From: Deltaproteobacteria bacterium RIFOXYA12_FULL_58_15
GTDB lineage: Bacteria; Myxococcota; XYA12-FULL-58-9
Direction of reading: 5' to 3'
Length of the DNA stretch: 35,969 nt
Assembly (NCBI GenBank): GCA_001798605.1
Contig: MGST01000327.1
Location: 514-36,482, forward strand
Shown here: positions 7,264 through 19,959 of the stretch, piece after piece
How positions within the stretch are numbered: the stretch's first letter is position 1
Layout: each line of letters opens with the position of its first letter
Notes under the pieces: generated by a model
Told to the model about the DNA's origin: nothing
What the model saw: only the letters and a program-made list of their open reading frames with translations
Databases searched by the model: none
Program-made: the position numbers and the translations under genes

Positions 7264-8142
7264 CTACTCGAGACCCAGGTCGCAAAGAGCCGACTCATCC
7301 AGACCTATCGCGTGTCCGACCTCGTGCAGCACGGTCGTACGTATTTCTTCAATGAGGATGTCTTTGGAAGGACAGGCACGCTCTAGGTTGCGCTTAAAAA
7401 GAAGAATGGTGGGTTGTTGTTCAGACGGCGCATCCAGCAAGGAAAGCTCGGTTGGTGGCACGCCGATGAACATGCCGAGCACCCGCGGCGACAACGGCGG
7501 ATCTGACTGCAACAAATCTCCTGGGTGTACGACGTCGGCAATGAGGATGGGTATACCCTTGGTGGCCTGGCGTACTGGCTCGGGCAAGCATGCCATCGCC
7601 TCCTCCACCACCGCCTCAAAATCGTTTCTCGTCAGCTGCGGGGTGACGGGGTATAGCTCCGGTGCGAGCGCGCGCGCCTTGCGGAAATACTCGATGTCGC
7701 GTCCAGTACCCATGATTTCTGCAATCAAACCGAGGGCAAAATGGGCCTCGGCGAGATTGGGTTGGCCACGCAAAGCGCTGCGCAATGCGTTGTCGGCCTC
7801 AGCAAAGCGGACCAACTCAAACAGAGCGAGACCGCGGCAACAATCCAGCTCTGCATCAGCAAGATCTGGATCGGCAACAGAGTCATAACTGGACAACGCT
7901 CCCAGCGCGTCACCGAGTTGGAGGAGCACATCGCCACGCATCAAGGCCGCATGGTAACGCGCGTCATCCCCTTGCAGGGCCGCGAGGTCACACAACTGCA
8001 GAGCATCATGATATCGGTCATCGCCCATGGCGACCTCTGCTTGGTCCAACTGCTCCTGCCAGGTCATAGGAGATCCGTGGCTTTTTGGCTCGGATCTGAG
8101 CCCAATACCGATATCTGCATTCTTCACTCCCTGTGTCGCCAT
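7264..8142 (-). CDS. TPR protein with C-terminal zincin-like metallopeptidase domain
   Basis: A 292-residue protein. The first two thirds show helical TPR-like repeats (for example DRYHDALQLCDLAALQGD and LAEAHFALGLIAEIMG). The last about 100 residues match the zincin-like metallopeptidase family (Pfam Zincin_1, formerly DUF1025): FIGVPPTELS, ILLFKRNLERACPS and the zinc motif HEVGHAIGLDE with His273 and His277. Members of that family are usually stand-alone proteins of about 120 residues, so the TPR fusion is a notable feature. No signal peptide is visible, which suggests a cytoplasmic protein. The start at 8142 has only a weak GAGCGG upstream. An in-frame ATG at 8067 (protein beginning MTWQEQ) has no ribosome site. 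Confidence 0.85.
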   Translation of the reverse strand: MATQGVKNADIGIGLRSEPKSHGSPMTWQEQLDQAEVAMGDDRYHDALQLCDLAALQGDDARYHAALMRGDVLLQLGDALGALSSYDSVADPDLADAELDCCRGLALFELVRFAEADNALRSALRGQPNLAEAHFALGLIAEIMGTGRDIEYFRKARALAPELYPVTPQLTRNDFEAVVEEAMACLPEPVRQATKGIPILIADVVHPGDLLQSDPPLSPRVLGMFIGVPPTELSLLDAPSEQQPTILLFKRNLERACPSKDILIEEIRTTVLHEVGHAIGLDESALCDLGLE

Positions 8143-8421
8143 AGCATGCCGCTCGGACCATCTGAAGCGAGTTTGCTAGGGCTCATTCGAAAGATGCCAT
8201 GTCGCCGATTTGGGCAAAAACACGTTGGGTCGCAATTCGATCCGATCGAGAATCTCGATTTTGTGTGGTCAAATAGGACGGTCCTACCGATAATCAGGCC
8301 GCAGACAGTTTGTTTGCGTCGAGGAGGGGCGCTCTGAGGGGCCTCGTGCCGGTTGACAGACTGAATGCGGTAGTGCCTATGTTGAGTCGACATCGAGCGC
8401 AAAGACGCTGTTGGAGTCACC
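8143..8421 (+). promoter_or_regulatory. Intergenic region upstream of the Cys-rich lipoprotein gene, weak promoter candidate
   Basis: This 279-base gap lies between divergent genes and shows no convincing small gene. TTGACA at 8353-8358 matches the sigma-70 -35 consensus fully, but the best -10 (TATGTT, 8378-8383) is 19 bases away, longer than ideal. GGAG at 8413-8416, five bases before the GTG at 8422, is the ribosome site that decides the downstream start. Confidence 0.35.
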
Positions 8422-10269
8422 GTGAAAAAACCAGAGTTGTTCATCTTTGCAATGTTCGTCGCAGGGACCGTGTCCTTGTGGAGCGGGTGCAACGCACCAC
8501 GCAGCCCAAAATGTGTGGGGCAAGAATGTCTCGAGGCTGACGCCGACGCCAAAGGATTCTGTGTCATCAACGAAGATTGCGCCACCGGGGAGACCTGCAA
8601 AGGTGGCAACTGCCAGCCACAAAACGGTGGAATCTGCGCGGTCAACAACGACTGTTCTTTGGGCATGTTCTGCAACATCATTCGCGGCAAGTGCGTCGAG
8701 TGCCTCGACCACGATCATTGCGACCTGCCGCTGGTCTGTCGAGCAGATGGTACCTGCGGCGCGGATTCACCTTGCAGCTCCGACGGTCAATGTGGTGTCG
8801 AGGTCTGTGACGAGACCCTGGGTTTTTGCGTCGAGTGCGTCATCAACGACGATTGTCCTGACGACAATGTGTGCAGAGAGCGTCGGTGTCGTGTCCCCGA
8901 CAACCAGCCGGGCTGTCTCTCAGATACCGAATGCCAGCCCTATGGCCAGATCTGCGATCCGACAACCAGCAACTGCGTCCAACCCGAATGCACAACCGCC
9001 GCGGCGTGCGCCACGCCTTTGGGATGCGTCAATAACCGATGTAAGCCTTGCCAATCGGCCGGGCAGTGCCGCAACGGCGAGGTATGCAACACAGCCACCG
9101 GCACCTGCGTGCAACCAAGTACCGGTTGTACCTCCGACGCCAGCTGTCCCGGACAACACTGTCGACAGTCGACCGGAACCTGTGTCGACTGTCTCGAGGA
9201 CGGTCACTGCGATCTCAACGAAACCTGCAACCCCGACGTCGGTGTGTGTCTACCGACGAACTCCGGATGCACGGGCAACGGCGATTGTCCCGGAGAATAC
9301 TGTTTGATCGCCACCGGTGATTGCGTCGCGTGTCTCACTGCAGCCCACTGTGAAGAAGAAGTGGAAACCTGCAGTCAAGCGTACACTTGCATTCCTGTTG
9401 GATCCGGTGACGTCGGAACCCCATGTGACAGCGCCGACAATTGCAACGATGGCTTGGTTTGCCTCGGCGACCAATGCTCCCGTCCGTGTATTGGCTCAGG
9501 CAAGGGTGGCGAGGAGGACTGCCCCCTGGGATCTGCCTGTTACGATTTCAAATCAGGCACCCTCGATGGCCTGCGTATGTGCGTCGGCTCAACTCTGCTC
9601 AACGCAAGCACCCCAGGTCAACCATTTGACATGGCTCCTGGTGACGACTGCACCTTGCGCAATGGTTGCCAAACAGGAAATTGCTTCGCCGATACCAACT
9701 GCGCACGCAGTTGCGGTGCCAACCGAGACTGCTCGGTCGGCGACGTATGTTACGCGGCGATGGATAGTTCCGGCGTACACACGGCTGAACATCTTTGCTT
9801 CGACTCCGATCTCGCCAACTACGCAGCGGTGGGCGAGTATTGCAACAACAGCGTGGAGTGTGACAGCGGCTTGTGTGTTGGCACCTGCGGAATCCTTGGC
9901 ATTAGGGACTGCAACAGCTCAAAGGACTGCTCGCTCTTGTCTCTCTGCCACGGGACCTGCGCCAACCATTGTCGCAGCAATGCCGACTGCCCCACAGGGG
10001 AAGCCTGCAACCCCTGGGCAACCACAGCATCGTATTTTGAGGGCGTGGTGACCGTGTGCACAACCAAGTTTTTCAATGGCACCGCAACCTATGGCGCCTC
10101 CTGCACCAGCTCCAGCCAATGCGCCAGCGATTGGTGCGTCGGCGGAATCTGCACGACCCCCTGTGGCACCAGCGCCGACTGCACGGGTGCCCTGTCCCAA
10201 AGGAAGTGCACACCGTTGACCTTCATGGACAATGGTGAGCCGCTGTACTCGCTGACTTTCTGTCAGTAA
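8422..10269 (+). CDS. Cys-rich repeat lipoprotein (Dickkopf/EGF-like spacing)
   Basis: A 615-residue predicted lipoprotein. The N-terminus has a basic start (MKKPELF), a hydrophobic core and a lipobox ending WSGC at about residue 23. The rest is a long series of Cys-rich modules of about 35-45 residues, with recurring patterns such as CVINEDCATGETCKGGNC, CVECVINDDCPDDNVC and CRSNADCPTGEAC. Such disulfide-rich repeats are common in surface proteins of Myxococcota and resemble the eukaryotic Dickkopf N-terminal Cys-rich fold. No enzymatic motif was seen. The start is GTG with GGAG five bases upstream. It is followed after 90 bases by another lipoprotein gene on the same strand. The function is unknown; a surface adhesion or scaffold role would be speculation. 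Confidence 0.88.
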   Translation: MKKPELFIFAMFVAGTVSLWSGCNAPRSPKCVGQECLEADADAKGFCVINEDCATGETCKGGNCQPQNGGICAVNNDCSLGMFCNIIRGKCVECLDHDHCDLPLVCRADGTCGADSPCSSDGQCGVEVCDETLGFCVECVINDDCPDDNVCRERRCRVPDNQPGCLSDTECQPYGQICDPTTSNCVQPECTTAAACATPLGCVNNRCKPCQSAGQCRNGEVCNTATGTCVQPSTGCTSDASCPGQHCRQSTGTCVDCLEDGHCDLNETCNPDVGVCLPTNSGCTGNGDCPGEYCLIATGDCVACLTAAHCEEEVETCSQAYTCIPVGSGDVGTPCDSADNCNDGLVCLGDQCSRPCIGSGKGGEEDCPLGSACYDFKSGTLDGLRMCVGSTLLNASTPGQPFDMAPGDDCTLRNGCQTGNCFADTNCARSCGANRDCSVGDVCYAAMDSSGVHTAEHLCFDSDLANYAAVGEYCNNSVECDSGLCVGTCGILGIRDCNSSKDCSLLSLCHGTCANHCRSNADCPTGEACNPWATTASYFEGVVTVCTTKFFNGTATYGASCTSSSQCASDWCVGGICTTPCGTSADCTGALSQRKCTPLTFMDNGEPLYSLTFCQ

Positions 10270-10287
10270 CCTCCCACGCCCGCCGGG

Positions 10288-10307
10288 ACCGTTGGGCACC
10301 GTTGGGC
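10288..10307. repeat. Tandem 10-bp direct repeat upstream of a lipoprotein gene
   Basis: ACCGTTGGGC occurs twice back to back (10288-10297 and 10298-10307), 53-72 bases before the start at 10360. A third partial copy (TTGGGC) follows. The period is about one helical turn, so it could be an operator, or chance in a GC-rich spacer. The remainder of the 90-base gap holds nothing I recognise. Confidence 0.4.
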
Positions 10308-10359
10308 TTGGGCACCCCACCTTGACCCACTGTCGTCGTCGGGCCATGGTTGTGCCCAA

Positions 10360-11361
10360 ATGACTCGCGTCATTGCATCTCTGACAATTGTCTGCATGGC
10401 TGGGTGCCAGGCCGACACGCCTCCTGCCCCTCCCGCGCCTGCGCGGATCGAGATGGCAGTCGAAACGCCTGCCCCACCTCCCTTCGAGCCTGAGATCGTC
10501 GCATATCGAGCTCCTGTGATTGAGGAGGCGCAGGTTGTTCGCAGGGGTAAGAAGGTTTCGCTGCGCCTCAATTGGGCAAGCGTCAACGGTGCCAGCAGCT
10601 ATCAAACCCAGATTTCCAAAGTTCTTACTTTTCAACGCAACTCCCAAGAGGGAGTGACTCGCAAACCACGCTTTGTCGCCAAGCGACTATCCCCTGGAGT
10701 CTACTTCTGGCGGGTTCGGGCCATTGGCGACGCTGGAGAGGGGGCGTGGAGCGACGTTCAGGTGCTCGACGCCACGGTCACTGGCAAAAAAAGCAAACGC
10801 AACCTCGTGGTCGCTGACATATCACCGGAAACCAAAGTCACCCAAGCAACCCAAGAGATCGAAGCCATGCGCTTGGTCTGGCAACAACCCAGACATCGCG
10901 CCGTGGTCACGAAAAGTCCCATCCATGTCGAAGGAGTGGCAACCAGCGGTACCAAACTGCAAATCAACACCCTGACTCCCATCACCGTTGACTCGACATT
11001 CGACGTGGCGATTGATCTCGAGCATGGTCGCAACGAACTCGTCATGACGGGCACCCTCGACGACCAACAAAAAACTCTCAGACGAGTCGTTTACTACGCC
11101 GACCCGGAGAAGCTTGCGCCCATTCGTCAACGATTCGAAGAACTGCGCAAACAGCTCGAGGAAATCGCGGCGATCCGCGGCGAGCTGACAGAGACCGCTC
11201 GAACTCTGGAGAGTCGGTTGAAGAGGACCGATGACAAAGATTCTATTGCGGAGATCAAAGAGGAGATGGACCACATCACCCAGATACGCCGCGAGATTGA
11301 CCAGGAGATCAACAGCGCCCTCGGAAACCTCGACGAATTGCTGACCGACTTTCCACGCTAA
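10360..11361 (+). CDS. Predicted lipoprotein with fibronectin/Ig-like domains and C-terminal coiled coil
   Basis: A 333-residue protein with a lipoprotein signal (lipobox MAGC, Cys about residue 16), then a Pro-rich linker. Residues about 65-130 look like a fibronectin type III-like domain (LRLNWASVNGASSYQTQIS, then GVYFWRVRAIGDAGEGAWS). A second beta domain follows (SPIHVEGVATSGTKLQI to GRNELVMTG), resembling glucodextranase-like Ig folds. The last about 80 residues form a charged helical, probably coiled-coil tail (RFEELRKQLEEIAAIRGEL). It probably sits in the envelope with its C-terminus in the periplasm. The family is not recognised beyond this. The ribosome site is weak. It converges on the FHA transducer gene with a 26-base gap. 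Confidence 0.8.
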   Translation: MTRVIASLTIVCMAGCQADTPPAPPAPARIEMAVETPAPPPFEPEIVAYRAPVIEEAQVVRRGKKVSLRLNWASVNGASSYQTQISKVLTFQRNSQEGVTRKPRFVAKRLSPGVYFWRVRAIGDAGEGAWSDVQVLDATVTGKKSKRNLVVADISPETKVTQATQEIEAMRLVWQQPRHRAVVTKSPIHVEGVATSGTKLQINTLTPITVDSTFDVAIDLEHGRNELVMTGTLDDQQKTLRRVVYYADPEKLAPIRQRFEELRKQLEEIAAIRGELTETARTLESRLKRTDDKDSIAEIKEEMDHITQIRREIDQEINSALGNLDELLTDFPR

Positions 11362-11387: not shown

Positions 11388-13667
11388 CTAGAAGCCGATG
11401 CTCTTGAAGATAAATGGATAGGTAATGATGACCTCACCACCTCGCGGTTTGGGAAACACCCAACTGCGGATCGCACCCATGATGCAATTGGTGGCCGACG
11501 TTGACTGGAGACTGGTGTAAGTCTGCCGCGCCGATCGTACGCTGCCGCTGGTGCCAACTGTCCATTCGACCTGCACCTTGCCAGAGAGACCGGGCGTTTT
11601 GATGAGCTCGCGCTCATAGCAGCGTTGGATCTCACCGATGTGTGCGTTGATGACCTTTTGGATCTCGTCACGGTCGAGTTGACCTTGCCCCACGGAACGC
11701 ATCGCCTTGGGATCCTTCTGTACCAAACCGCCGACGCCCTTGCCCTTGCCGCGGGCGAGCCCACCACCACCGCCGCCGCCGCGCAACAACGTGGCACCAC
11801 CTTTGGTCATCAAGCCACCGCCACCACCGCCGACGGACAGACTGCTGGATGGCAGCTTGCCAATCAATCCAGAGACCCTAAACCCGACCGCCCCCCCAGG
11901 CACTCTCGCAGCGGTGAGGTTCGACACCGCGGCAACCGCAGCGGCGGGTCCCGGCGCCTGAGATGAGCCGCGCTTCGACAACAAGCCCAGCACCCCAGCG
12001 GGTGCCGCCGACTGTCCACCAGGCCGGGGTTTTCGCCGACTCGGTTTCGCCTCACTCTTGGCGACTGGCTCAGGCGCTTCTTCCTTGACCTCCTCCGGCT
12101 TCTCCTCGGCAGGCGGCTCTTCGAGCTGCGGCGCGGCATCGAGCGTCACCTCGACAAAATCGTCGTTCTTGCGCAGAGTCGAATGAACCAGCTCGGGAGG
12201 AACAAAGAGGTACACCGACAGAAGGGCGAGAACGTGCACTCCGAATGAGGCACCAAAGGACTTCACCACGCTGCCATCGGGCCGCACTCGATCGGCGATG
12301 GTGCGCTCGTCCTCGATGGGAACGGGCGGCACCACGTAGCGAATATGATAGCGGGTGGCACCATCGGCAACGTCGAGCACTTCACCATCACACAAGCCCA
12401 TGACCCGGGTACCGCGCCGCTTGCCCTTGTCGGAAACCTTGTCGAGCTTGAGACGCTCCTGACCACGCTTGAGAGTCCCATCGATCTGCTGATGCAGCTC
12501 GACGCGACAATCGCCTTTGCCCGTGTATTTGAGCAGGCGCAGGCGAGGCGGAAGATCTCGCGCCCGCCGCCGCATCATGAAACCTACTTCGGGACCAATC
12601 CAGAACGACTGCCCTTGACTGAGCAAGGTGACGTCGGTGACCGTGTCCCCCTGAAGGGTGAGCACCTCAATGGCTCGACCACGCTTGCTGCGGGGCTCGG
12701 CAATCGTAGCGTCCTCTTGCAACAGTTGCGCAACCAGCGAAAACGGCGGCACATAATTGGCGTCGTCATCATCATCGTCGTCGTCGTCGTAGGCGACGGT
12801 CGGAACGGGGCCGGCATCATCATCGGCAGCGCTCGAATCATCTTCATCAAACCGCTCGTCGCGCTCAGGCGCGGTGGACGCAAAAGCGGTGTCGAGATCA
12901 GCACCCTCGTCATCAACAAACCGAGGTTCTTCGGCAACTGGTGCCTTCGGCTTTGCCGGCATCTTCGGTTTGGCCAATGGCTTTGGCTTGGCCTTGCCAT
13001 TCGATTTCTCGGGGGGCAGTGGGCCACCCTGGGCTCTGCCGTCCGGTGCGGTAATGCCGATGCCCTCGAGGACCGCACCGAAGCGCTCCTTGTCCATGAT
13101 CTCGCCGCGATCACGAAACTCCGCTCTCTGCTCGATATTCTTGCGGGAGGGACCGTCCACGTGCCCCGAAACATCGTCCCAGTCCGAGATGTCCCCGCCG
13201 GATCCTTTGGACGCAACTTGATCGGCGCGGGTTCTCGCGATGAGATCCTCGGGAAACGGATCTGCCTGGGTCTTGCCGGCAAGATCATCCCCCAATGAAG
13301 CCACCTGCGCAGCCACAGTTGCTTCGGGCATGCCGGCCGCTGGTTGGTTGCGACTGACGAGCTTGATCTTGAGGGAGTAGTCGCCGAGCAAGACCTCGTC
13401 GAGTCGAGTCAGCTCAGATTGTTGGATTCTCTGGTTGTTGAGGTAGATACCATTGGTGCTGCCGTTGTCCCGGATGACCACACGGGCCCCGTCGTGTTCG
13501 AGGACCGCATGTTTGCGTGACACCTGACTCGAATCGAGGACCAGGTCAGCGACGGCAGGATCCCGACCCACCGAGATCGCTTGTTCGGAGAACATGTCGG
13601 TCCCGATGAATTCACCGTTTTTGAAGATGAAGACCTGTAGGACGGCTGGGCTGGGGCGCGATGGCAA
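11388..13667 (-). CDS. FHA domain / TM / TonB-like (AgmX/PglI C-terminal) energy transducer, GltG-like
   Basis: A 759-residue protein. An N-terminal FHA phosphothreonine-binding domain (about 10-105) has the key residues Gly34-Arg35, SRKH (50-53) and NGSTNG (68-73). A long acidic and Pro/Lys-rich linker with a poly-Asp run follows, then a second beta domain (about 330-450), one membrane segment (about 470-490), and a Pro/Glu- and Gly-rich periplasmic spacer. The C-terminus (about 662-759, DEIQKVINAHIGEIQRCYERE onward) matches the AgmX/PglI TonB-like domain. This is the layout of GltG in Myxococcus gliding motility, where TolQR-type motors drive such proteins. The start is TTG, five bases after GAGGAG, which lies in the last codons of the small upstream gene, so translation is likely coupled. 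It is the last gene of the motor-like operon. Confidence 0.88.
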   Translation of the reverse strand: MPSRPSPAVLQVFIFKNGEFIGTDMFSEQAISVGRDPAVADLVLDSSQVSRKHAVLEHDGARVVIRDNGSTNGIYLNNQRIQQSELTRLDEVLLGDYSLKIKLVSRNQPAAGMPEATVAAQVASLGDDLAGKTQADPFPEDLIARTRADQVASKGSGGDISDWDDVSGHVDGPSRKNIEQRAEFRDRGEIMDKERFGAVLEGIGITAPDGRAQGGPLPPEKSNGKAKPKPLAKPKMPAKPKAPVAEEPRFVDDEGADLDTAFASTAPERDERFDEDDSSAADDDAGPVPTVAYDDDDDDDDDANYVPPFSLVAQLLQEDATIAEPRSKRGRAIEVLTLQGDTVTDVTLLSQGQSFWIGPEVGFMMRRRARDLPPRLRLLKYTGKGDCRVELHQQIDGTLKRGQERLKLDKVSDKGKRRGTRVMGLCDGEVLDVADGATRYHIRYVVPPVPIEDERTIADRVRPDGSVVKSFGASFGVHVLALLSVYLFVPPELVHSTLRKNDDFVEVTLDAAPQLEEPPAEEKPEEVKEEAPEPVAKSEAKPSRRKPRPGGQSAAPAGVLGLLSKRGSSQAPGPAAAVAAVSNLTAARVPGGAVGFRVSGLIGKLPSSSLSVGGGGGGLMTKGGATLLRGGGGGGGLARGKGKGVGGLVQKDPKAMRSVGQGQLDRDEIQKVINAHIGEIQRCYERELIKTPGLSGKVQVEWTVGTSGSVRSARQTYTSLQSTSATNCIMGAIRSWVFPKPRGGEVIITYPFIFKSIGF
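12761..12790. repeat. Triplet microsatellite encoding poly-Asp
   Basis: Ten consecutive triplets that read GAC or GAT on the minus strand encode an uninterrupted Asp run in the cytoplasmic linker of the FHA transducer. Slippage here would change linker length in frame. Confidence 0.85.
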
Positions 13668-13669
13668 TT

Positions 13670-13906
13670 TTACTCCTCAAAAACCGTGCGGATGATACGT
13701 TGGCGAAACGAACGGCCTCGACGGACCAAACTGCGAATATCTATCTCCTGTCGATCGTAGATGTATACGGATCCTGCCTTGGTGGTTTGGCCTTTGATCA
13801 ACCGGTCGTCAAAATCGACGCGGGTCGGGCCTCGATATCCCTGGGCCAACGCCACTGAGGCGAATGCAAAACTGAGCAAGAGTCCAATGATGATCTTCTT
13901 GACCAT
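13670..13906 (-). CDS. Small secreted protein of the TolQR/FHA operon
   Basis: A 78-residue protein with a clear signal peptide (MVKKIIIGLLLSFAFASVALA, cleavage near residue 21). The mature part is about 57 residues and strongly basic at the C-terminus (RSLVRRGRSFRQRII). It contains no Cys, so it is a periplasmic candidate rather than a lipoprotein. The start is certain: GAGGAGG lies four bases before the ATG. It sits between the second TolR-like gene (9-base gap) and the FHA transducer gene (2-base gap). I do not recognise a named family, but its position suggests a periplasmic accessory of the motor or transducer complex. That role is inferred from operon context only. Confidence 0.85.
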   Translation of the reverse strand: MVKKIIIGLLLSFAFASVALAQGYRGPTRVDFDDRLIKGQTTKAGSVYIYDRQEIDIRSLVRRGRSFRQRIIRTVFEE

Positions 13907-13915
13907 GCTGCCTCC

Positions 13916-14425
13916 TCAAATCTTTCGCTGAACTGCCAGGCGGAACTTGATGAAACCGGCGTTGGCGGCTGTCTTCAACACCCGATCGACGGTGTCGGAA
14001 CGGGTGCCCGTGGCCGCCTCAAAGTACACAATCTGAGTCTCGTCTTCTTCGTCCTCACCACTCGGCTGTGACTTGACGGTGCCCTGCTCAAGTCGGGCCT
14101 TCTGCTTTTTCATTTCACGCAGCAATGGCACCACGTGCTTGTCACTGTCGAGATCACTGGCCTGAAACTCACCCCCAGAGAGGCGACAAACGATTTTTTC
14201 CTCAACCCGAACGTCTTCGGTGGAGATCGACACCTTGACGACCAATTTGATTGGCCGCTCTGAGGTCGACTTCGGCAAACTGAAGTCTTTCGGGGGCATA
14301 ACCTCACTCTCCTCGGTGGAGAAATTGACAATGAGGAAGATGAGAACAATCGTAAGGATGTCCATCAACGACGTGATGTTGAGTGAGAATTCTTTGGCTT
14401 CGCGACGGGCTCTCTTTGTGAACAT
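13916..14425 (-). CDS. ExbD/TolR-family biopolymer transport protein (second copy, with Asp)
   Basis: A 169-residue protein with a short basic cytoplasmic head (MFTKRARREAKEF), one membrane helix and a periplasmic domain. The helix begins NITSLMDILTIVLIFLIV and carries the conserved membrane Asp (residue about 22) that serves as the proton carrier in ExbD/TolR/MotB-type stators. The periplasmic part includes a charged stretch rich in Glu and Lys (about 130). It is the third gene of the operon, after the TolQ-like gene and a first TolR-like gene that lacks this Asp. The two TolR-like genes are separated by 11 bases. In known systems TolQ and TolR type subunits convert proton flow into movement of a TonB-like partner; here the FHA transducer is the likely partner. 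Confidence 0.88.
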   Translation of the reverse strand: MFTKRARREAKEFSLNITSLMDILTIVLIFLIVNFSTEESEVMPPKDFSLPKSTSERPIKLVVKVSISTEDVRVEEKIVCRLSGGEFQASDLDSDKHVVPLLREMKKQKARLEQGTVKSQPSGEDEEDETQIVYFEAATGTRSDTVDRVLKTAANAGFIKFRLAVQRKI

Positions 14426-14436
14426 GACTTGCTCGC

Positions 14437-14973
14437 CTACTTAAGCCGACTCGACAAAACAACTTTTGGAAACAACTCCACCTTGCTCTTCATGGTGCCG
14501 CGCTCGATGGTCTTGTCCCGCACGGCATCCATCGTGACAATCACATCTTCGTAAGGTATTTCCGGATCGGGCGTGACAATGACCGTGTCGGAGGCAGCGT
14601 ACTTGCCCTTGATCTTGTACGCCGAATCTCGCAGTTGGTCGTACATCGCCTTTTCTACCCGCTCATCAACGCCCTTGACCCTGGGGATCTTGTCCCTGAG
14701 AGTTGCAATGATCCCAGGATCAATGGTGTCACTTGCCGCCTGTAGGTTGAAGGCGTCTGCGGTTATGTCGAGCTGCAGGGTAATTTTGTCCTCGTCCTTC
14801 GCGATGTCAGTCTCACCTGTCTCCGTCGAAGCTATGGGGATGGTGATTTGGATAACGGACATATGGAAAAAGGCTGCGGACAAAAGAAGAAACGGGATCA
14901 GAGCCGTGAACAAATTCATGACCGGAATGAGGTTGGGAACAAGGTCCTCGGGCTCTTTTTTCTCAATCTTCAC
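14437..14973 (-). CDS. ExbD/TolR-like protein with Asn in place of the membrane Asp (first copy)
   Basis: A 178-residue protein with the ExbD/TolR layout: a short cytoplasmic head (MKIEKKEPEDL), one membrane helix (about 13-36) and a periplasmic domain. The helix reads NLIPVMNLFTALIPFLLLSAA: the position where ExbD-type proteins have the proton-accepting Asp holds Asn. The periplasmic part ends with a segment (ASDTVIVTPDPEIPYEDVIVTMDAVRD) close to the usual TolR/ExbD C-terminal fold. It is the second gene of the operon, 18 bases after the TolQ-like gene. It may be a structural or regulatory partner of the Asp-containing copy in a mixed dimer; this is inference. No other acidic residue lies within the helix. 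Confidence 0.82.
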   Translation of the reverse strand: MKIEKKEPEDLVPNLIPVMNLFTALIPFLLLSAAFFHMSVIQITIPIASTETGETDIAKDEDKITLQLDITADAFNLQAASDTIDPGIIATLRDKIPRVKGVDERVEKAMYDQLRDSAYKIKGKYAASDTVIVTPDPEIPYEDVIVTMDAVRDKTIERGTMKSKVELFPKVVLSSRLK

Positions 14974-14991
14974 GAGAACCCCAACCTTGGA

Positions 14992-15630
14992 TCAGGCGCG
15001 CTTCTTTGCGAGTCGACGATTGCGCGCCGAGAGGTAATTGAACAAGTCCGTCGACTTGGTTTCAATCTGCGACAAGATCACGTTCTGCCGAGTCTGGAAA
15101 ATCGTGAAAGCGACGATGCACGGGATTGCGGCGATCAATCCAAACGCCGTGGTAAACATGGCGACCGCGATACCCTTTGAGAGAATTTCCTGCTTGGCGG
15201 CCGCATCTGCTTGAGCTACGCCCTTGAACGCTTCAATCAGACCCATGATCGTGCCAAGCAACCCCAACAACGTGGCGATGTTGGCAATCATGCCGAGATA
15301 GGTGACTCGTTTTGTTACAACCGGGACCGCCTTCATGGTGGCCGCCTCCATGGCCCGTTGGATGTCCTTGTCAGACTCATTGGCTTTCATCAGCCCTGAC
15401 TTGACAACATCAGACAATGGATGCCCTGACTCGACGTTGCATGCCTCGATTGCACGGCTGAACTTCTTTTCCTCGAGATAACCAATGATTTGGTTGACGA
15501 ACTGCTCCGCGTTTAGACGATAGCGGAAGTACAAGAAGTATGTCCTCTCAATCATCACGGCCACGCCTACCACTGACGCCACGAGGATGACGTACATAAA
15601 CTCGCCGCCACGCTGCAGAATATCGAACAT
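14992..15630 (-). CDS. MotA/TolQ/ExbB-family proton channel protein
   Basis: A 212-residue protein with three membrane segments: about 10-30, about 110-135 (LGMIANIATLLGLLGTIMGLIEAF) and about 150-175 (IAVAMFTTAFGLIAAIPCIVAF). The conserved MotA/TolQ/ExbB core motifs LLGLLGTIMGLI and GIAVAMFTTAFGL-IP are clear, and the length is typical of the family. It is the first gene of the five-gene operon leading to the FHA transducer. The 117-base gap upstream of it should hold the promoter, but I see no convincing -35/-10 pair there. GGAG about 11 bases before the ATG is the likely, somewhat distant, ribosome site. By analogy it forms the stator that works with the TolR-like proteins. Confidence 0.92.
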   Translation of the reverse strand: MFDILQRGGEFMYVILVASVVGVAVMIERTYFLYFRYRLNAEQFVNQIIGYLEEKKFSRAIEACNVESGHPLSDVVKSGLMKANESDKDIQRAMEAATMKAVPVVTKRVTYLGMIANIATLLGLLGTIMGLIEAFKGVAQADAAAKQEILSKGIAVAMFTTAFGLIAAIPCIVAFTIFQTRQNVILSQIETKSTDLFNYLSARNRRLAKKRA

Positions 15631-15747: not shown

Positions 15748-17640
15748 TCAATAATAACCGACCTTGACAAGCATTCCGCTCGCACCCACGAGCCACAGAC
15801 GACGAAGCTCACCGGCCCCCGTCACCCACAGGGCGGTGATATTCTCTGAGATGCCATTGTCGATGCACTCGCCCGTGGTCGGCTCAGGGTTACAAAGCAC
15901 CGCGATGTCGCCGCCGTACTCGAGCAGCACACCCGAGTCACCGACTGCGTAACCTCTCTCCTGCCCAAGGGAAAACACTCCAGAGAGAAACGCCGGTGGT
16001 GCCCCTTGACGCGTTTCGAGACCACAGCCGCTCCCCGGTGCGATCATCACCACGGCACCACCAGCACCGACAGCGTGGAAAACTCCTTCCCGCTGGCTCA
16101 CCGACGCCAAGACCGGGCGTTCATCGAGAGGATGGGGCGTCGCGGATGCACAATCGGGACGAATCCATACTTCGGTGGGATCGAGTTGCCCACCAAGATT
16201 GAGATAGACGATCGTGCCGCCAGCGCCAACGGCAACCACCGTGCTGCCATCCGAGGTCACAGCGCGCAACGTTTTGTCGAGACGGAAGAAGCAATAGGGA
16301 CATGCGTCGGAGCACTCCCCCGCCACAAGGGCACCGCAGGCATTGTCAGCGCGCAGGCCTGTGCGATCCTCGACCAAGGACAGGCACCCGGGCCCCTGAC
16401 AGGCGGCGCCGGTGAGCTCATCCTGGTCACCGCTCACACAGCAAGCGCCGTTCGCACAATTGCACTGGGTCTTGTAGACATTGCATTGAGCTGGACAACG
16501 CGGCGCCAAACGCCCTTGGCAATTCTGGCCAGGGCCGACGGGATCTTGGAATGGACAATCGTTGCTATGAAAGTACGCCAGTTGTTCTTGTGCAATCCAC
16601 GCACCGCGGTCGGTTATGGGCAACAACGGAGCGGCCACAGTCTGCGCGGCGTTGGGCCCAGCGTAGGTGATCACTGTGCCATTCTCGCCAACCGCCACCA
16701 CCATGACATGGGTGTTCTCGTAGACCATGGCCCAAACATCCATGAGCGTCGGACGAAATTCATCGAGGTCCCGCTCGCCAATCTCTCTGTCACAGACCGT
16801 GCCGACACCGTCGGCGTCGGGATCGGCCTGCGGTGCCCTCTCGCCACAATAGCCATCGATGCAGTCCTCACCTCCTGCACAGGTTCCGCCGCAGGTCGCC
16901 GGTAGAAATGCACCATCGTCGGGCCATTCCAAACATGTCTGGTTCTCGAAGTCGTCGTCGAGGTCGGTGATGGGCCGCATGGTGCCGTTGGGACTGCTTC
17001 GGCAGTTGTCATCACAATTGTTGGTCCCACTGCTCTTGCAGGTGTCCTTGCAACTCCACCAACCGTCTGGTCCCCCCGTGATTGGATCACCACCGCCGTC
17101 GTCGAGAATTCCATCGCCGTCGGAGTCGGGACAAAACGGATCGATCTTCACATAGGGAGTGAAGCCAACCCCAGGCTCTGAGATCGTCTGCCACACTCCA
17201 TTCTCAGGGGTTGGATTGGCGACAGCAGACGGGTTGGGATGAAAATGCAACAGGGTTCCGTTCCACCCCACCGCAAACATCTCACCATCAACTCGCTCCT
17301 GACCAAAGTCACGACCGTTCTCAACACCCCAAATGCCGGTGAGATGCTCTGTGGTCCCCGAAGGCATGGTCTTCCAATGACCCTCGGGGTTTGTGGGGGT
17401 CGCCCGGTTGGTGATGATCGCCCCATACCAACCAACGACAAACAGCGCACCATCACTGCGACCCCAGACATCGGTGAAGGTCATGTTGCCTTGGTTGTGC
17501 TCAATCGTCTCGAAATGCCACCTCGGTGGCTCATCCACGTCGCCCTTGGCGACCGCCCCAGCGGTTTTCTCCTGGCAGCCCGCAAAGCTCGCAGACATGA
17601 GCAGAACAGCAAAAAGAGGATGTCGATGCTTTCGAACCAT
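15748..17640 (-). CDS. Predicted lipoprotein with beta-propeller-like and calcium-type repeats
   Basis: A predicted lipoprotein of 630 residues. I start it at ATG 17640 because the protein then begins MVRKHRHPLFAVLLMSASFAGC, a good lipoprotein signal; a longer reading to 17718 would bury it. Repeated GxxG-centred blades such as DVWGRSDGALFVVGWYGAI, MFAVGWNGTLLHF and VMVVAVGENGTVITY suggest a beta-propeller like the BNR or YCF48 type. An inserted Cys-rich stretch contains thrombospondin type 3-like motifs (DSDGDGILDDGGGD, DPDADGVGTVCD) likely to bind calcium. TACCCT lies six bases before the ATG and no ribosome site is visible. It is divergent from the VWA-like lipoprotein gene, with 129 bases between the starts. 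The function is unknown. Confidence 0.8.
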   Translation of the reverse strand: MVRKHRHPLFAVLLMSASFAGCQEKTAGAVAKGDVDEPPRWHFETIEHNQGNMTFTDVWGRSDGALFVVGWYGAIITNRATPTNPEGHWKTMPSGTTEHLTGIWGVENGRDFGQERVDGEMFAVGWNGTLLHFHPNPSAVANPTPENGVWQTISEPGVGFTPYVKIDPFCPDSDGDGILDDGGGDPITGGPDGWWSCKDTCKSSGTNNCDDNCRSSPNGTMRPITDLDDDFENQTCLEWPDDGAFLPATCGGTCAGGEDCIDGYCGERAPQADPDADGVGTVCDREIGERDLDEFRPTLMDVWAMVYENTHVMVVAVGENGTVITYAGPNAAQTVAAPLLPITDRGAWIAQEQLAYFHSNDCPFQDPVGPGQNCQGRLAPRCPAQCNVYKTQCNCANGACCVSGDQDELTGAACQGPGCLSLVEDRTGLRADNACGALVAGECSDACPYCFFRLDKTLRAVTSDGSTVVAVGAGGTIVYLNLGGQLDPTEVWIRPDCASATPHPLDERPVLASVSQREGVFHAVGAGGAVVMIAPGSGCGLETRQGAPPAFLSGVFSLGQERGYAVGDSGVLLEYGGDIAVLCNPEPTTGECIDNGISENITALWVTGAGELRRLWLVGASGMLVKVGYY

Positions 17641-17769
17641 AGTGCGAGGGTACCCCAAGAACTGCGGCGTGGCCACCCTGCTCTGCTGGGCAATTGACCA
17701 CAAAACGCGGGGCCACACATACCCATGGGCATTGGGCCCAACAGCGGGTAGACTGGCTTGGGGAAGACC

Positions 17770-19959
17770 ATGAAAAACTGCACTGCCATGCTAAAGATCT
17801 GCCTGTTCATTCCACTCATGGTGGCCTTGGGCTGCACCGACTCCGATATCTACACCGCGACGGGTGTCGAGCCCTACCGCCCCGATCGCATCGCCATTAC
17901 TGGACGGTTGTGCACAGAGGACATCACGGGTCCCAATTTCCCGGTGAAGATTCTCACGATGATCGACACCACCAATGCGATGTTCAACGCCGACCCTGAC
18001 CTCTACAGGTTCTGCGGACCAGGTGCGTCGACATGCGCCTCGGGCAGTCTCAATGGTTTCGTTGACCGCATGCGCAACCAGCAGAACGTTCGCCTCGGCT
18101 TTGCTGGCATCTCCAATGTATCGAAACCCATTACCCCAGTGCCCGCGGCATTGTGCCAACCGCCCCCATGCGATGCACAACAGTTCTTCTCCGGCCGTGA
18201 TATCGACGGCGGCCTCTTGCAGAGCGCCCTTTCGCTGCCCACGGGCAACCAACGGGACATCTCCAATGCCATATCCCAGGCCGAGAGCTTCATTACTGCC
18301 GACATGGCGTCCTCATCGGCGGGTGAAATCCTGCGTAGTCGTTATCTGGTATTTATGCTCCTCGCCGGACCGCCAACAAACTCTGTGGCCACCTCGCAGC
18401 TGGTGCAACAGGTCGAGCATCTGCGAGACTTTGTTTACAGCAAAGGAGCGTTGGAGTTTCGCCTGAACATAGGTCTGCTCTATTTTGGCAATCGCAGCAT
18501 CACTGCGCCACCGACAGGATACGGCTGCCATTTGCCGGAGGGCAGCACGGCCTGCAGTTGCGGGGGATCCTGCGTGGGTGACAACCCCAACTACTGCTCC
18601 GCTTGCTGCGCCACCGCAGGCAGTCCGCCGTCGCCCTTTGGCAGCTTGAGCTGGGAGGTCTACAACGAACAAGCGAGTCAGGTTTATTCTGCCCTGTCCT
18701 TCGCAGGGGACGGATTGTTTCGTGAGTTCGAATGCCCCGCCGTCATGGAGATCCGCCTCGACGCGGCAGCCACTTCGATCCAGCTGAAACGAAAAGATAT
18801 CGTCGCCTACAATATCAACGTCAAGCTGGCAATCGACGGCCCGGTCATCGACAGCGATGGTGACGGTTTGGCAGATTATGAGGAAGCACGAGCACAGCCG
18901 CACACCAATACCGACAACTGGGACACCGACGGAGATGGGCTCAGCGACCGTCTCGAGTTTCGAGCCTTCCCGCGCCAAGACCCGACCGACAACACCGACC
19001 GACCGGCTTCCTGTCCTGATCCAGAGATACTCGGCATCATTCCCGATCAAGACCTCGATCTCCTCAACGACTGCGAAGAGGGACTCTTGCAAACAAGCCC
19101 GTCAATTCCCGACACAGACGGCGATGGCTTACCCGACGCGCTCGAATTTATGAGTAGCACCGTGCCAACCTCTGCGGACGACCGTTTGCTCGATTTTGAC
19201 GGTGATGGCATCGCCAATGCTGAGGAAGTGTTGGCACACACGAACCCGCGGACCAACGATGGCCGCCTGCGAGGAGCAGAGGGTTACCGCACGGAGATCA
19301 TTGATCTCGGAATCCGCACCGTCTCCGACATGGAGGACACTCGGCAGCTTCGCGCCATCAGCTTCCGTTCTGCATCCAACAACGTCGTTGGTGGAGCGGG
19401 CCTGTTGCGGTGGAACTACACCGGCAAGACGATGAGCGCCGACGGCCGCGATGCCTCACCACGCAGCGTCGAGTGGAGCGACGCCAGGTGGCAGATTCCG
19501 CCCTATTTCACACCCATCCCCACGGTCATCGACGAGGGAAGCGGAATGTACACTCTGCGCGCTGAGAGCGCGTCGACCGGCGAAATCTTGGAAATCAAGG
19601 TATACGTCCACGAAAATTGGCTTCCCGATGAAGACACCGAAGTCTTCCCGTTGATCTCCACCTCCGACCGCAACTGCTACGACGTGCAAATCTCCAACAT
19701 CAAGCTCCTGCAGACCCGCGAAGCAGAAGACATCATCCACGTCGGCGAGACCCACGAGGAAGGCACCAACCACATCCTGGTGTTCTTCACCCAGGCTCCA
19801 GAAGACCGACTCGACTCGCCAGGCATTGCCAAGGTTGCGGTCCTCGATCCTGTGATCTACCGCTGCACGGATCCCAATGACATCGAGTCATGCGCGCGCA
19901 ATCCTGACTCCGGCTTCCTCGAGATCACCGATGCCGACTTCGCCGCGTCGGTGCCATAG
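17770..19959 (+). CDS. Lipoprotein with degenerate VWA-like domain and thrombospondin type 3 repeats
   Basis: A 729-residue predicted lipoprotein (MKNCTAMLKICLFIPLMVALGC, lipobox ALGC). The ATG at 17770 follows GGGGA; an in-frame TTG 12 bases earlier is less likely. The N-terminal about 330 residues resemble a von Willebrand A domain, with a hydrophobic strand then IDTTNAM where an intact MIDAS would read DxSxS, and a later FMLLAGPP strand. A Cys-rich insert (CSCGGSC, CSACCATAGS) interrupts it. Residues about 360-500 hold calcium-binding repeats DSDGDGLADYEE, DTDGDGLSDRLEF, DTDGDGLPDALEF and DFDGDGIANAEE. The C-terminal part is beta-rich and unassigned. It is followed after 11 bases by another lipoprotein gene, so they probably form one operon. 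It is likely a surface protein. Confidence 0.85.
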   Translation: MKNCTAMLKICLFIPLMVALGCTDSDIYTATGVEPYRPDRIAITGRLCTEDITGPNFPVKILTMIDTTNAMFNADPDLYRFCGPGASTCASGSLNGFVDRMRNQQNVRLGFAGISNVSKPITPVPAALCQPPPCDAQQFFSGRDIDGGLLQSALSLPTGNQRDISNAISQAESFITADMASSSAGEILRSRYLVFMLLAGPPTNSVATSQLVQQVEHLRDFVYSKGALEFRLNIGLLYFGNRSITAPPTGYGCHLPEGSTACSCGGSCVGDNPNYCSACCATAGSPPSPFGSLSWEVYNEQASQVYSALSFAGDGLFREFECPAVMEIRLDAAATSIQLKRKDIVAYNINVKLAIDGPVIDSDGDGLADYEEARAQPHTNTDNWDTDGDGLSDRLEFRAFPRQDPTDNTDRPASCPDPEILGIIPDQDLDLLNDCEEGLLQTSPSIPDTDGDGLPDALEFMSSTVPTSADDRLLDFDGDGIANAEEVLAHTNPRTNDGRLRGAEGYRTEIIDLGIRTVSDMEDTRQLRAISFRSASNNVVGGAGLLRWNYTGKTMSADGRDASPRSVEWSDARWQIPPYFTPIPTVIDEGSGMYTLRAESASTGEILEIKVYVHENWLPDEDTEVFPLISTSDRNCYDVQISNIKLLQTREAEDIIHVGETHEEGTNHILVFFTQAPEDRLDSPGIAKVAVLDPVIYRCTDPNDIESCARNPDSGFLEITDADFAASVP

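Follow-up and report, generated by a model that had tools for sequence, protein, structure and literature searches.

Within the window, the whole 35,969-nucleotide stretch of DNA analysed here from Deltaproteobacteria bacterium RIFOXYA12_FULL_58_15 (contig MGST01000327.1), an operon encodes two TolR-like proteins that differ at the channel residue, one having Asn and the other Asp. A 5:2 ion motor is modelled as having a pair of equivalent Asp sites that alternate, and the locus raises the question of whether such a motor can run on one.

A motor operon with unequal TolR subunits

Five ORFs were located on the minus strand at the coordinates of the original prediction, with intergenic gaps of 18 (TolQ/TolR1), 11 (TolR1/TolR2), 9 (TolR2/CglF-like) and 2 bases (CglF-like/GltG-like), so that the tightly spaced gene set it described stands:

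14992..15630, minus strand: TolQ/AglR-like ring subunit, 212 aa (PF01618 and alignment to ExbB 5sv0_B)
14437..14973, minus strand: TolR1, TolR-like subunit in the AglQ position, 178 aa, with Asn20 and Pro27 (PF02472)
14914..14916 (plus-strand numbering), minus strand: Asn20 codon of TolR1, AAT, equivalent to AglQ Asp28
13916..14425, minus strand: TolR2, TolR-like subunit in the AglS position, 169 aa, with Asp22 (PF02472; ExbD-like periplasmic fold)
14360..14362, minus strand: Asp22 codon of TolR2, GAC, sole channel Asp of the TolR1/TolR2 pair
13670..13906, minus strand: small secreted CglF/GltF-like protein, 78 aa (CglF profiles and slot in relatives)
11388..13667, minus strand: GltG-like transducer, 759 aa, with N-terminal FHA domain, TM segment near 471-489 and C-terminal AgmX/PglI (TonB-like) domain

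TolQ matched PF01618 at 96.8 bits (cut-off 22.9), and both TolR1 (43.0 bits) and TolR2 (49.5 bits) exceeded the PF02472 gathering cut-off of 25.4. The conserved membrane Asp of PF02472 is present in TolR2 and absent from TolR1, whose TM segment has no other acidic residue, and the predicted contrast at the channel position was confirmed as Asn20 (AAT) and Asp22 (GAC). An energiser of the Tol-Pal or TonB type was rejected, as TIGR02796, TIGR02797, TIGR02801 and TIGR02803 all scored far below cut-off and the operon encodes neither Pal nor a receptor.

The GltG-like protein contains a canonical FHA domain (61.9 bits, cut-off 20.7) and a myxo_SS_tail domain (111.9 bits, cut-off 40), in agreement with the Agl/Glt-like motor and membrane-spanning FHA/TonB-like transducer that had been proposed. 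Its C-terminal domain passes the cut-off of NF033768, and the protein as a whole scores 178 bits against the GltG equivalog NF033760, below the cut-off of 650. The small protein had been thought to lack a family, which did not hold: it matches NCBIfam CglF (NF033764) weakly (28 bits, 1.6e-6, below the cut-off of 90) and reaches 60 bits with a CglF profile made in this analysis, to which the small protein itself contributed. Its best relative lies in locus L057 (5.5e-8), and a CglF-like protein occupies the same operon slot in L189-L195. Judged by its sequence, it is a diverged CglF/GltF.

Conservation of the Asn/Asp pair

Among 115 non-identical TolQ-TolR1-TolR2 sets, 45 have Asn at the TolR1 channel position, 69 have Asp and a single relative (locus L171) has Gly, and the conservation in related genomes that the original prediction proposed to check is thus established. 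TolR2 has Asp in all 114 readable sets, and an Asp-containing TolR2 adjoins TolR1 in 69/69 Asn or Gly copies, overlapping loci counted. Gene order is fixed as TolQ-TolR1-TolR2, with TolR1 and TolR2 co-occurring strictly one-to-one. The Asn copy, which might have proved rare, erroneous or without a conserved Asp partner, is common and always beside the Asp copy, and on these alignments many bacteria have kept the unequal arrangement. Because the Asn is near-invariant inside its groups and is always accompanied by Pro at +7 (45/45 Asn sets), it looks selected rather than decayed. We give virtually no credence to an artefact of sequencing or assembly, or to TolR1 as a dying gene: the assembly is fragmented (381 contigs), but the same Asn recurs in a paralogue on contig C277 and in the 45 non-identical sets of many genomes, in intact ORFs. 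Sequencing error as its source was rejected on this conservation.

Residues in both TolQ and TolR2 go with the TolR1 Asn. Aligned to ExbB 5sv0_B, the window TolQ has Thr at the positions of T148, 180 and T181, and Val in place of E176. Thr at position 180, next to the channel Thr, is found in 34/34 Asn sets versus 2/47 Asp sets, and the channel Glu at the E176 position in 0/34 versus 31/47, an association that comprises only four independent contrasts after phylogeny is taken into account (sign test p 0.125, low power). GltG was seen with 30 of the 34 Asn sets versus 5 of the 47 Asp sets. A single Asn/Gly clade was rejected (p-AU 5e-6) on a 49-row LG+G4 tree with long branches, the group having been named after the tree was seen.

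Gliding genes and the output of the motor

The original prediction saw no gliding partners in view, and indeed no other glt gene lies in the window, but the search elsewhere in the genome that it suggested found GltB-GltA-GltC-GltD homologues on contig C271 (L221), in the order seen at the related locus L192:

8143..8832: GltB homologue
8829..9500: GltA homologue
about 9344..11095: GltC homologue
11123 onward: GltD homologue

At L192, one operon runs TolQ-TolR1-TolR2-CglF-GltG and then GltB-GltA-GltC-GltD; its barrels pass OMP_myx_plus, and its GltC-like protein (4.7e-16) falls below cut-off. Genomes of family f7 carry TolQ-R1(N)-R2(D)-CglF-GltG in a single operon, and contig C277 of the present genome holds a second Asn/Asp set, GltD-GltE-CglF-TolQ-R1-R2-GltG. 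No Asp/Asp TolR pair was found among the PF02472 matches of the genome, which is 92.6% complete. Since GltBACD are present and no such pair was found, any gliding by the host must use an Asn/Asp motor. The search did not recover CglB by curated score (best 32.5 bits, cut-off 200).

The operon may instead energise something else, such as envelope stabilisation or polymer export, its likeness to gliding systems being ancestry only; this is a serious possibility, somewhat under an even chance. It would accommodate the GltG, CglF and CglB scores below equivalog cut-offs, and M. xanthus offers a precedent, a related machinery, Nfs, that serves the spore coat rather than gliding (PMC3858216). Against it stand the GltB-GltA-GltC-GltD homologues, which are present in the genome and in L192 share one operon with this motor type. 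This alternative concerns the output and not the motor, and is compatible with the explanation that we prefer.

A proposed single proton site per subunit pair

Our best reading, with a probability of about 0.5, is an Agl/Glt-type envelope motor with a TolR1:TolR2 heterodimer and one proton-carrying Asp. The operon would supply two parts of this machine, its engine in the inner membrane and the transducer that spans the periplasm, with a ring of five TolQ surrounding one TolR1 and one TolR2 as an asymmetric stator. The proton-binding Asp would be on TolR2 only, the TolR1 Asn being permanently neutral and mimicking a site that stays protonated. Only TolR2 Asp22 would take up and release the protons that come in via TolQ, so that each Asp visit yields a single power stroke; a turn would then have five strokes rather than ten, or the motor would move back and forth. 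GltG may relay motion or tension, its C-terminal TonB-like domain crossing the periplasm to reach toward CglF/GltF and the outer-membrane GltB/GltA/GltC/GltD subcomplex (contig C271), and a phosphothreonine signal at the cytoplasmic FHA domain may gate the coupling. The biological output would be surface transport or gliding. We hold more tentatively, just short of an even bet, to the full TolQ5-TolR1-TolR2 scheme, in which the axle is heterodimeric with the proton Asp on one subunit, the ten-fold cycle becomes five-fold or reciprocating, and TolQ is re-tuned to a neutral partner.

The M. xanthus mutant AglQ D28N loses proton conductance, motility and sporulation (PMC3858216), and for this reason TolR1 alone is an unlikely proton carrier. 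Because AglQ D28N is dead although the AglS Asp is kept, one Asp is insufficient in the M. xanthus motor, which counts against our best reading, as do motor models that need both Asp sites protonated (PMC10659934). It is further weakened by a TolQ association on four contrasts only and by a TolR1 model that lacks a significant structural match.

TolR1 and TolR2 share only distant likeness (13-16%). The TolR2 model has an ExbD-like periplasmic fold, and a PDB sequence search with TolR2 returned weak ExbD matches only; a longer helix distinguishes the TolR1 model, whose fold search gave no significant structural match and none to ExbD, and the PDB sequence search with TolR1 gave no ExbD match. 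These differences, together with the rule of homodimers in known 5:2 motors (PMC9389320), would suit two homodimeric complexes, with TolQ5(TolR2)2 as the proton motor and TolR1 apart, in a non-conducting TolQ5(TolR1)2 or outside the ring, as an anchor, brake or adaptor for GltG. We regard this as unlikely, as a shared complex better fits the one-to-one co-occurrence and fixed Q-R1-R2 order, the TolQ and TolR2 residues that track the Asn, and the essential AglQ Asp28 of Asp/Asp relatives despite the AglS Asp (PMC3858216). Even for AglQ and AglS, the choice between homo- and heterodimers is described as not known (PMC9389320), which also counts against our best reading. It is more doubtful still that the Asn is not inert and hydrogen bonds with TolQ Thr180/Thr181 in proton transfer, both subunits alternating with changed chemistry. 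Such a role would explain why the Asn is strongly kept in its groups without random replacement and is accompanied by a TolQ Thr adjoining the channel Thr, but Asn is not protonatable in the physiological range, the TolR1 TM segment offers no acidic substitute, Gly is tolerated in L171, and AglQ D28N is dead (PMC3858216).

Ten-fold symmetry has been called 'almost certain to be a universal feature' of 5:2 motors (review, PMC9389320). If our best reading is true, this supposedly universal cycle becomes five-fold or reciprocating, and nature may have a motor in which each subunit pair offers just one proton site. A widespread motor family with one partner whose Asn is fixed is a natural experiment that can separate 5:2 motor models, which differ on whether a fixed neutral site permits rotation with half the protons or restricts rotation; it also offers a direct route to the AglQ/AglS heterodimer question in gliding (PMC9389320). 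No report of a natural TolR1-type Asn was found in the open-access literature, and literature searches found no MotB heterodimers or natural Asn variants.

The ExbB-ExbD, TolQ-TolR and MotA-MotB 5:2 motors belong to the same protein superfamily, and their channel Thr residues are kept in the window TolQ; they have a homodimer with two Asp, whereas the window encodes two different TolR proteins, one without Asp. The second TolQ/TolR/TolR set of Myxococcaceae, which we take to be MXAN_3003-3005-like, has the same TolQ-TolR1-TolR2 order and a TolR2 that resembles that of the Asn sets (NITAMMDMMTILLVFLLKSFA), but is Asp/Asp and without adjoining glt genes (L153, L109). Also close is the gliding machinery AglR-AglQ-AglS with GltA-K of M. 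xanthus, which shares TolQ and two TolR in the same order, a GltG-like transducer, CglF/GltF, and GltB-GltA-GltC-GltD homologues in the genome. It differs in that AglQ and AglS are both Asp (L152, L154, L155), in that the window transducer and CglF fall below curated equivalog cut-offs, and in that the window unites motor and transducer in one operon; by alignment, TolR1 occupies the AglQ position and naturally carries the equivalent of the D28N that paralyses Agl. The Group B 'core complex' consists of GltD, E, G and C with AglR, Q and S (Luciano et al. 2011, PMC3169522), and the main text of that paper contains no word beginning 'aspart' and does not discuss the Asn as an Asp loss. As in that complex, one operon joins motor and glt genes here; the window set is without adjoining GltD, GltE and GltC, whereas the C277 set fits closely.

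The five-gene operon and its channel residues

Five tightly spaced minus-strand genes had been predicted, and all five were confirmed, separated by gaps of 18, 11, 9 and 2 bases:

14992-15630 (minus): TolQ, 212 aa, MotA_ExbB family
14437-14973 (minus): TolR1, the first TolR-like subunit, 178 aa, ExbD
13916-14425 (minus): TolR2, the second TolR-like subunit, 169 aa, ExbD
13670-13906 (minus): small secreted protein
11388-13667 (minus): GltG-like transducer, 759 aa

Both TolR-like proteins exceed the Pfam gathering score for ExbD. The transducer combines an FHA domain containing the GRD, SRKH and STNG residues with an AgmX/PglI C-terminal domain that scores above cut-off and, like TolR1 and TolR2, has a single hydrophobic segment. 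The expected swap of Asn for the channel Asp was found in TolR1 (LIPVMNLFTALIPFLL, Asn20), and TolR2 does keep its Asp (ITSLMDILTIVLIFLI, Asp22). For the single chain of TolR2, AlphaFold predicts a transmembrane helix (20-35) and a periplasmic fold like that of ExbD (pLDDT 75.5), with PDB matches to ExbD (8pek and 8p9r) and TolR (5by4), of which only 8pek falls below 0.001. In the single-chain model of TolR1, the helix is longer (16-41) and the periplasmic domain is mixed (pLDDT 81.4); no significant structural match to it was found in the PDB.

The small protein had been described as lacking a recognized family, a view that no longer holds. It matches CglF (1.6e-6, 28 bits; cut-off 90), and its best relative found is the CglF of another locus, L057 (5.5e-8), which also directly precedes a GltG. 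A CglF profile built in this analysis, which itself included the small protein, gives 60 bits. One family of genomes, f7, keeps this gene in its place after TolR2 and before GltG. The small protein is termed CglF/GltF-like here. At L057 (51-3020), a second CglF-GltG pair lies directly upstream of a TolQ-TolR1(Asn)-TolR2(Asp) set.

Several other genes were observed in the window. A 656 aa open reading frame without a Pfam or NCBIfam family (15748-17718, minus) immediately precedes TolQ in the same orientation. A TSP3-repeat protein (17758-19959, plus) is similar to MtsD, a protein of cell-cell cohesion (7.6e-32, below cut-off), and has a weak similarity to CglD. A 968 aa protein (2145-5051, minus) unusually combines a TolB-like PD40 propeller with a weak C-terminal Omp85-like match (9e-4), and one frame (7264-8142, minus) encodes TPR repeats followed by a zincin-like metallopeptidase domain. 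A PknB-like Ser/Thr kinase (847-2079, minus) shares the window with the FHA-bearing transducer and is a possible source of its phosphopeptide signal.

Conservation of the Asn/Asp pair

A scan of named genomes using the Asp copy as query returned 80 loci. Most belong to Myxococcota or to MAGs of unclassified Deltaproteobacteria, with UBP6 among the other groups represented. The neighboring TolR1, which was not the query, carries Asn in about 32 of the 80 and Asp in most others. Further loci came from searching at class level with TolR1 and at phylum level with TolQ (195 genomes). Among 115 non-identical TolQ-TolR1-TolR2 sets, the TolR1 channel residue is Asn in 45, Asp in 69 and Gly in 1, so the Asn copy is not rare. 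TolR2 has Asp in 114/114 readable cases, an invariance that is partly built into the 80-locus scan because one of its two peptide patterns contains this residue; it also holds in loci retrieved via TolQ or TolR1. An Asp copy lies within 1.5 kb of every Asn or Gly copy (69/69, overlapping loci counted), and the pairing anticipated by the original prediction is thus conserved. The Gly-bearing TolR1 (LGPMMGLISILIPCLL; L171/L032, G001:C82) has an Asp-carrying TolR2 beside it, and the gene order matches that of the window's genome. At another locus (L205, G003:C6, 7065-10962), two TolQ-TolR-TolR sets that differ in type lie one after the other.

Other residues accompany the Asn. Pro occurs at +7 in all 45 Asn copies of TolR1 and in only four Asp copies; those four branch together within the Asn sequences, which suggests a reversal to Asp. 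In TolQ, numbered as ExbB from alignment to 5sv0_B, Thr occupies position 180, immediately preceding the channel Thr181, in 34/34 Asn sets versus 2/47 Asp sets, in which this position is mostly Asn, while Glu at E176 is present in 0/34 versus 31/47. TolR2 has Ser at -3 from its Asp in 33/34 Asn sets, compared to 5/47 Asp sets. Kinship accounts for part of this association: no more than four or five Asn/Asp changes are required on the trees, and in most pairings the TolQ Thr agrees in 4/4 independent contrasts (median p 0.125). A reduced test rejected the grouping of all Asn/Gly copies in one clade, indicating that Asn was gained, or lost, more than once.

A second motor and Glt partners in the same genome

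The window's genome (6.37 Mb, 381 contigs, 92.6% complete) has nine ExbD matches, of which five belong to single-gene systems and the other four make up two TolR pairs, with no Asp/Asp pair among the nine. The second pair and a further operon are located as follows:

Contig C277, 8968-17843 (L018): second motor operon, GltD-GltE-CglF-TolQ-TolR1(Asn)-TolR2(Asp)-GltG, in this order
Contig C271, 8143-13833 (L221): GltB-GltA-GltC-GltD-like operon, with genes in order at 8143-8832, 8829-9500, about 9344-11095, and 11123 to the end

The C277 TolR1 has Asn at the channel position (INLTPMMNLIAILIPVLL) and its TolR2 has Asp; the TolR1 sequence is interrupted in places where stretches of N (gap or masked) occur. 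No FHA match was found in the C277 GltG, and the canonical FHA domain therefore sets the window's transducer apart from its paralogue.

GltG is in view in 30/34 Asn sets versus 5/47 Asp sets, a descriptive comparison of related loci of unequal length. The window arrangement, TolQ-TolR1(Asn)-TolR2(Asp)-CglF-GltG with a long GltG, is also found in seven f7 genomes (G011, G013, G014, G015, G017, G018 and G019; L189-L195) and in G174 (L198), where the CglF match is weak; in G004, the motor genes alone are still together. At L192, GltG has an FHA domain, and the genes after it encode two outer-membrane barrels that pass the OMP_myx_plus cut-off, a protein resembling GltC (4.7e-16, which is below cut-off) and a TPR protein resembling GltD. 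The C271 operon contains these four partner genes in the same order. The claim that no gliding-specific partners are in view must accordingly be revised for the genome. CglB gave weak matches only. The window's motor and the C271 operon are probably one machine split over two places, with C271 the likely outer-membrane half.

Mechanism and relation to the Agl/Glt machinery

In this superfamily, two inner subunits sit inside a ring of five, and MotB D22N is used to imitate the protonated form (PMC9389320). If TolR1 and TolR2 pair, they would present one Asp and an Asn that always stays neutral. Should rotation require neutrality at both sites, the Asn partner would permit it at each protonation of the TolR2 Asp, with five strokes in every turn; in the rail model (PMC9389320), a limited swing might be all that a fixed neutral site allows. 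The real motor may behave in either way. The sequences, their conservation, the residue association and the partner genes are observed; co-assembly, proton flow and output are predictions.

Agl sets in Myxococcus, Pyxidicoccus and Anaeromyxobacter genomes are ordered TolQ, TolR, TolR. The first TolR of Pyxidicoccus (MAGGMDTGQGGKGKKSLDVAINLTAFIDLMAV) has Asp at residue 28, identifying it as AglQ, and the second is AglS (LLITPLVDMFVIIVLFLI). The window's TolR1 holds the AglQ position and is a natural carrier of the equivalent of D28N, a substitution with which M. xanthus AglQ no longer supports proton conductance, gliding or sporulation (PMC3858216). Searches of the open-access literature turned up no account of this natural Asn. 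The operon's motor is a new form of the Agl/Glt kind. The operon resembles the gliding machinery in gene content and order, and it most likely works like that machinery. It differs from the strict Agl/Glt gliding machinery in that GltG, CglF and CglB all score below equivalog cut-offs and TolR1 lacks the channel Asp: while AglQ and AglS both keep this residue, the window's TolR1 has Asn instead.
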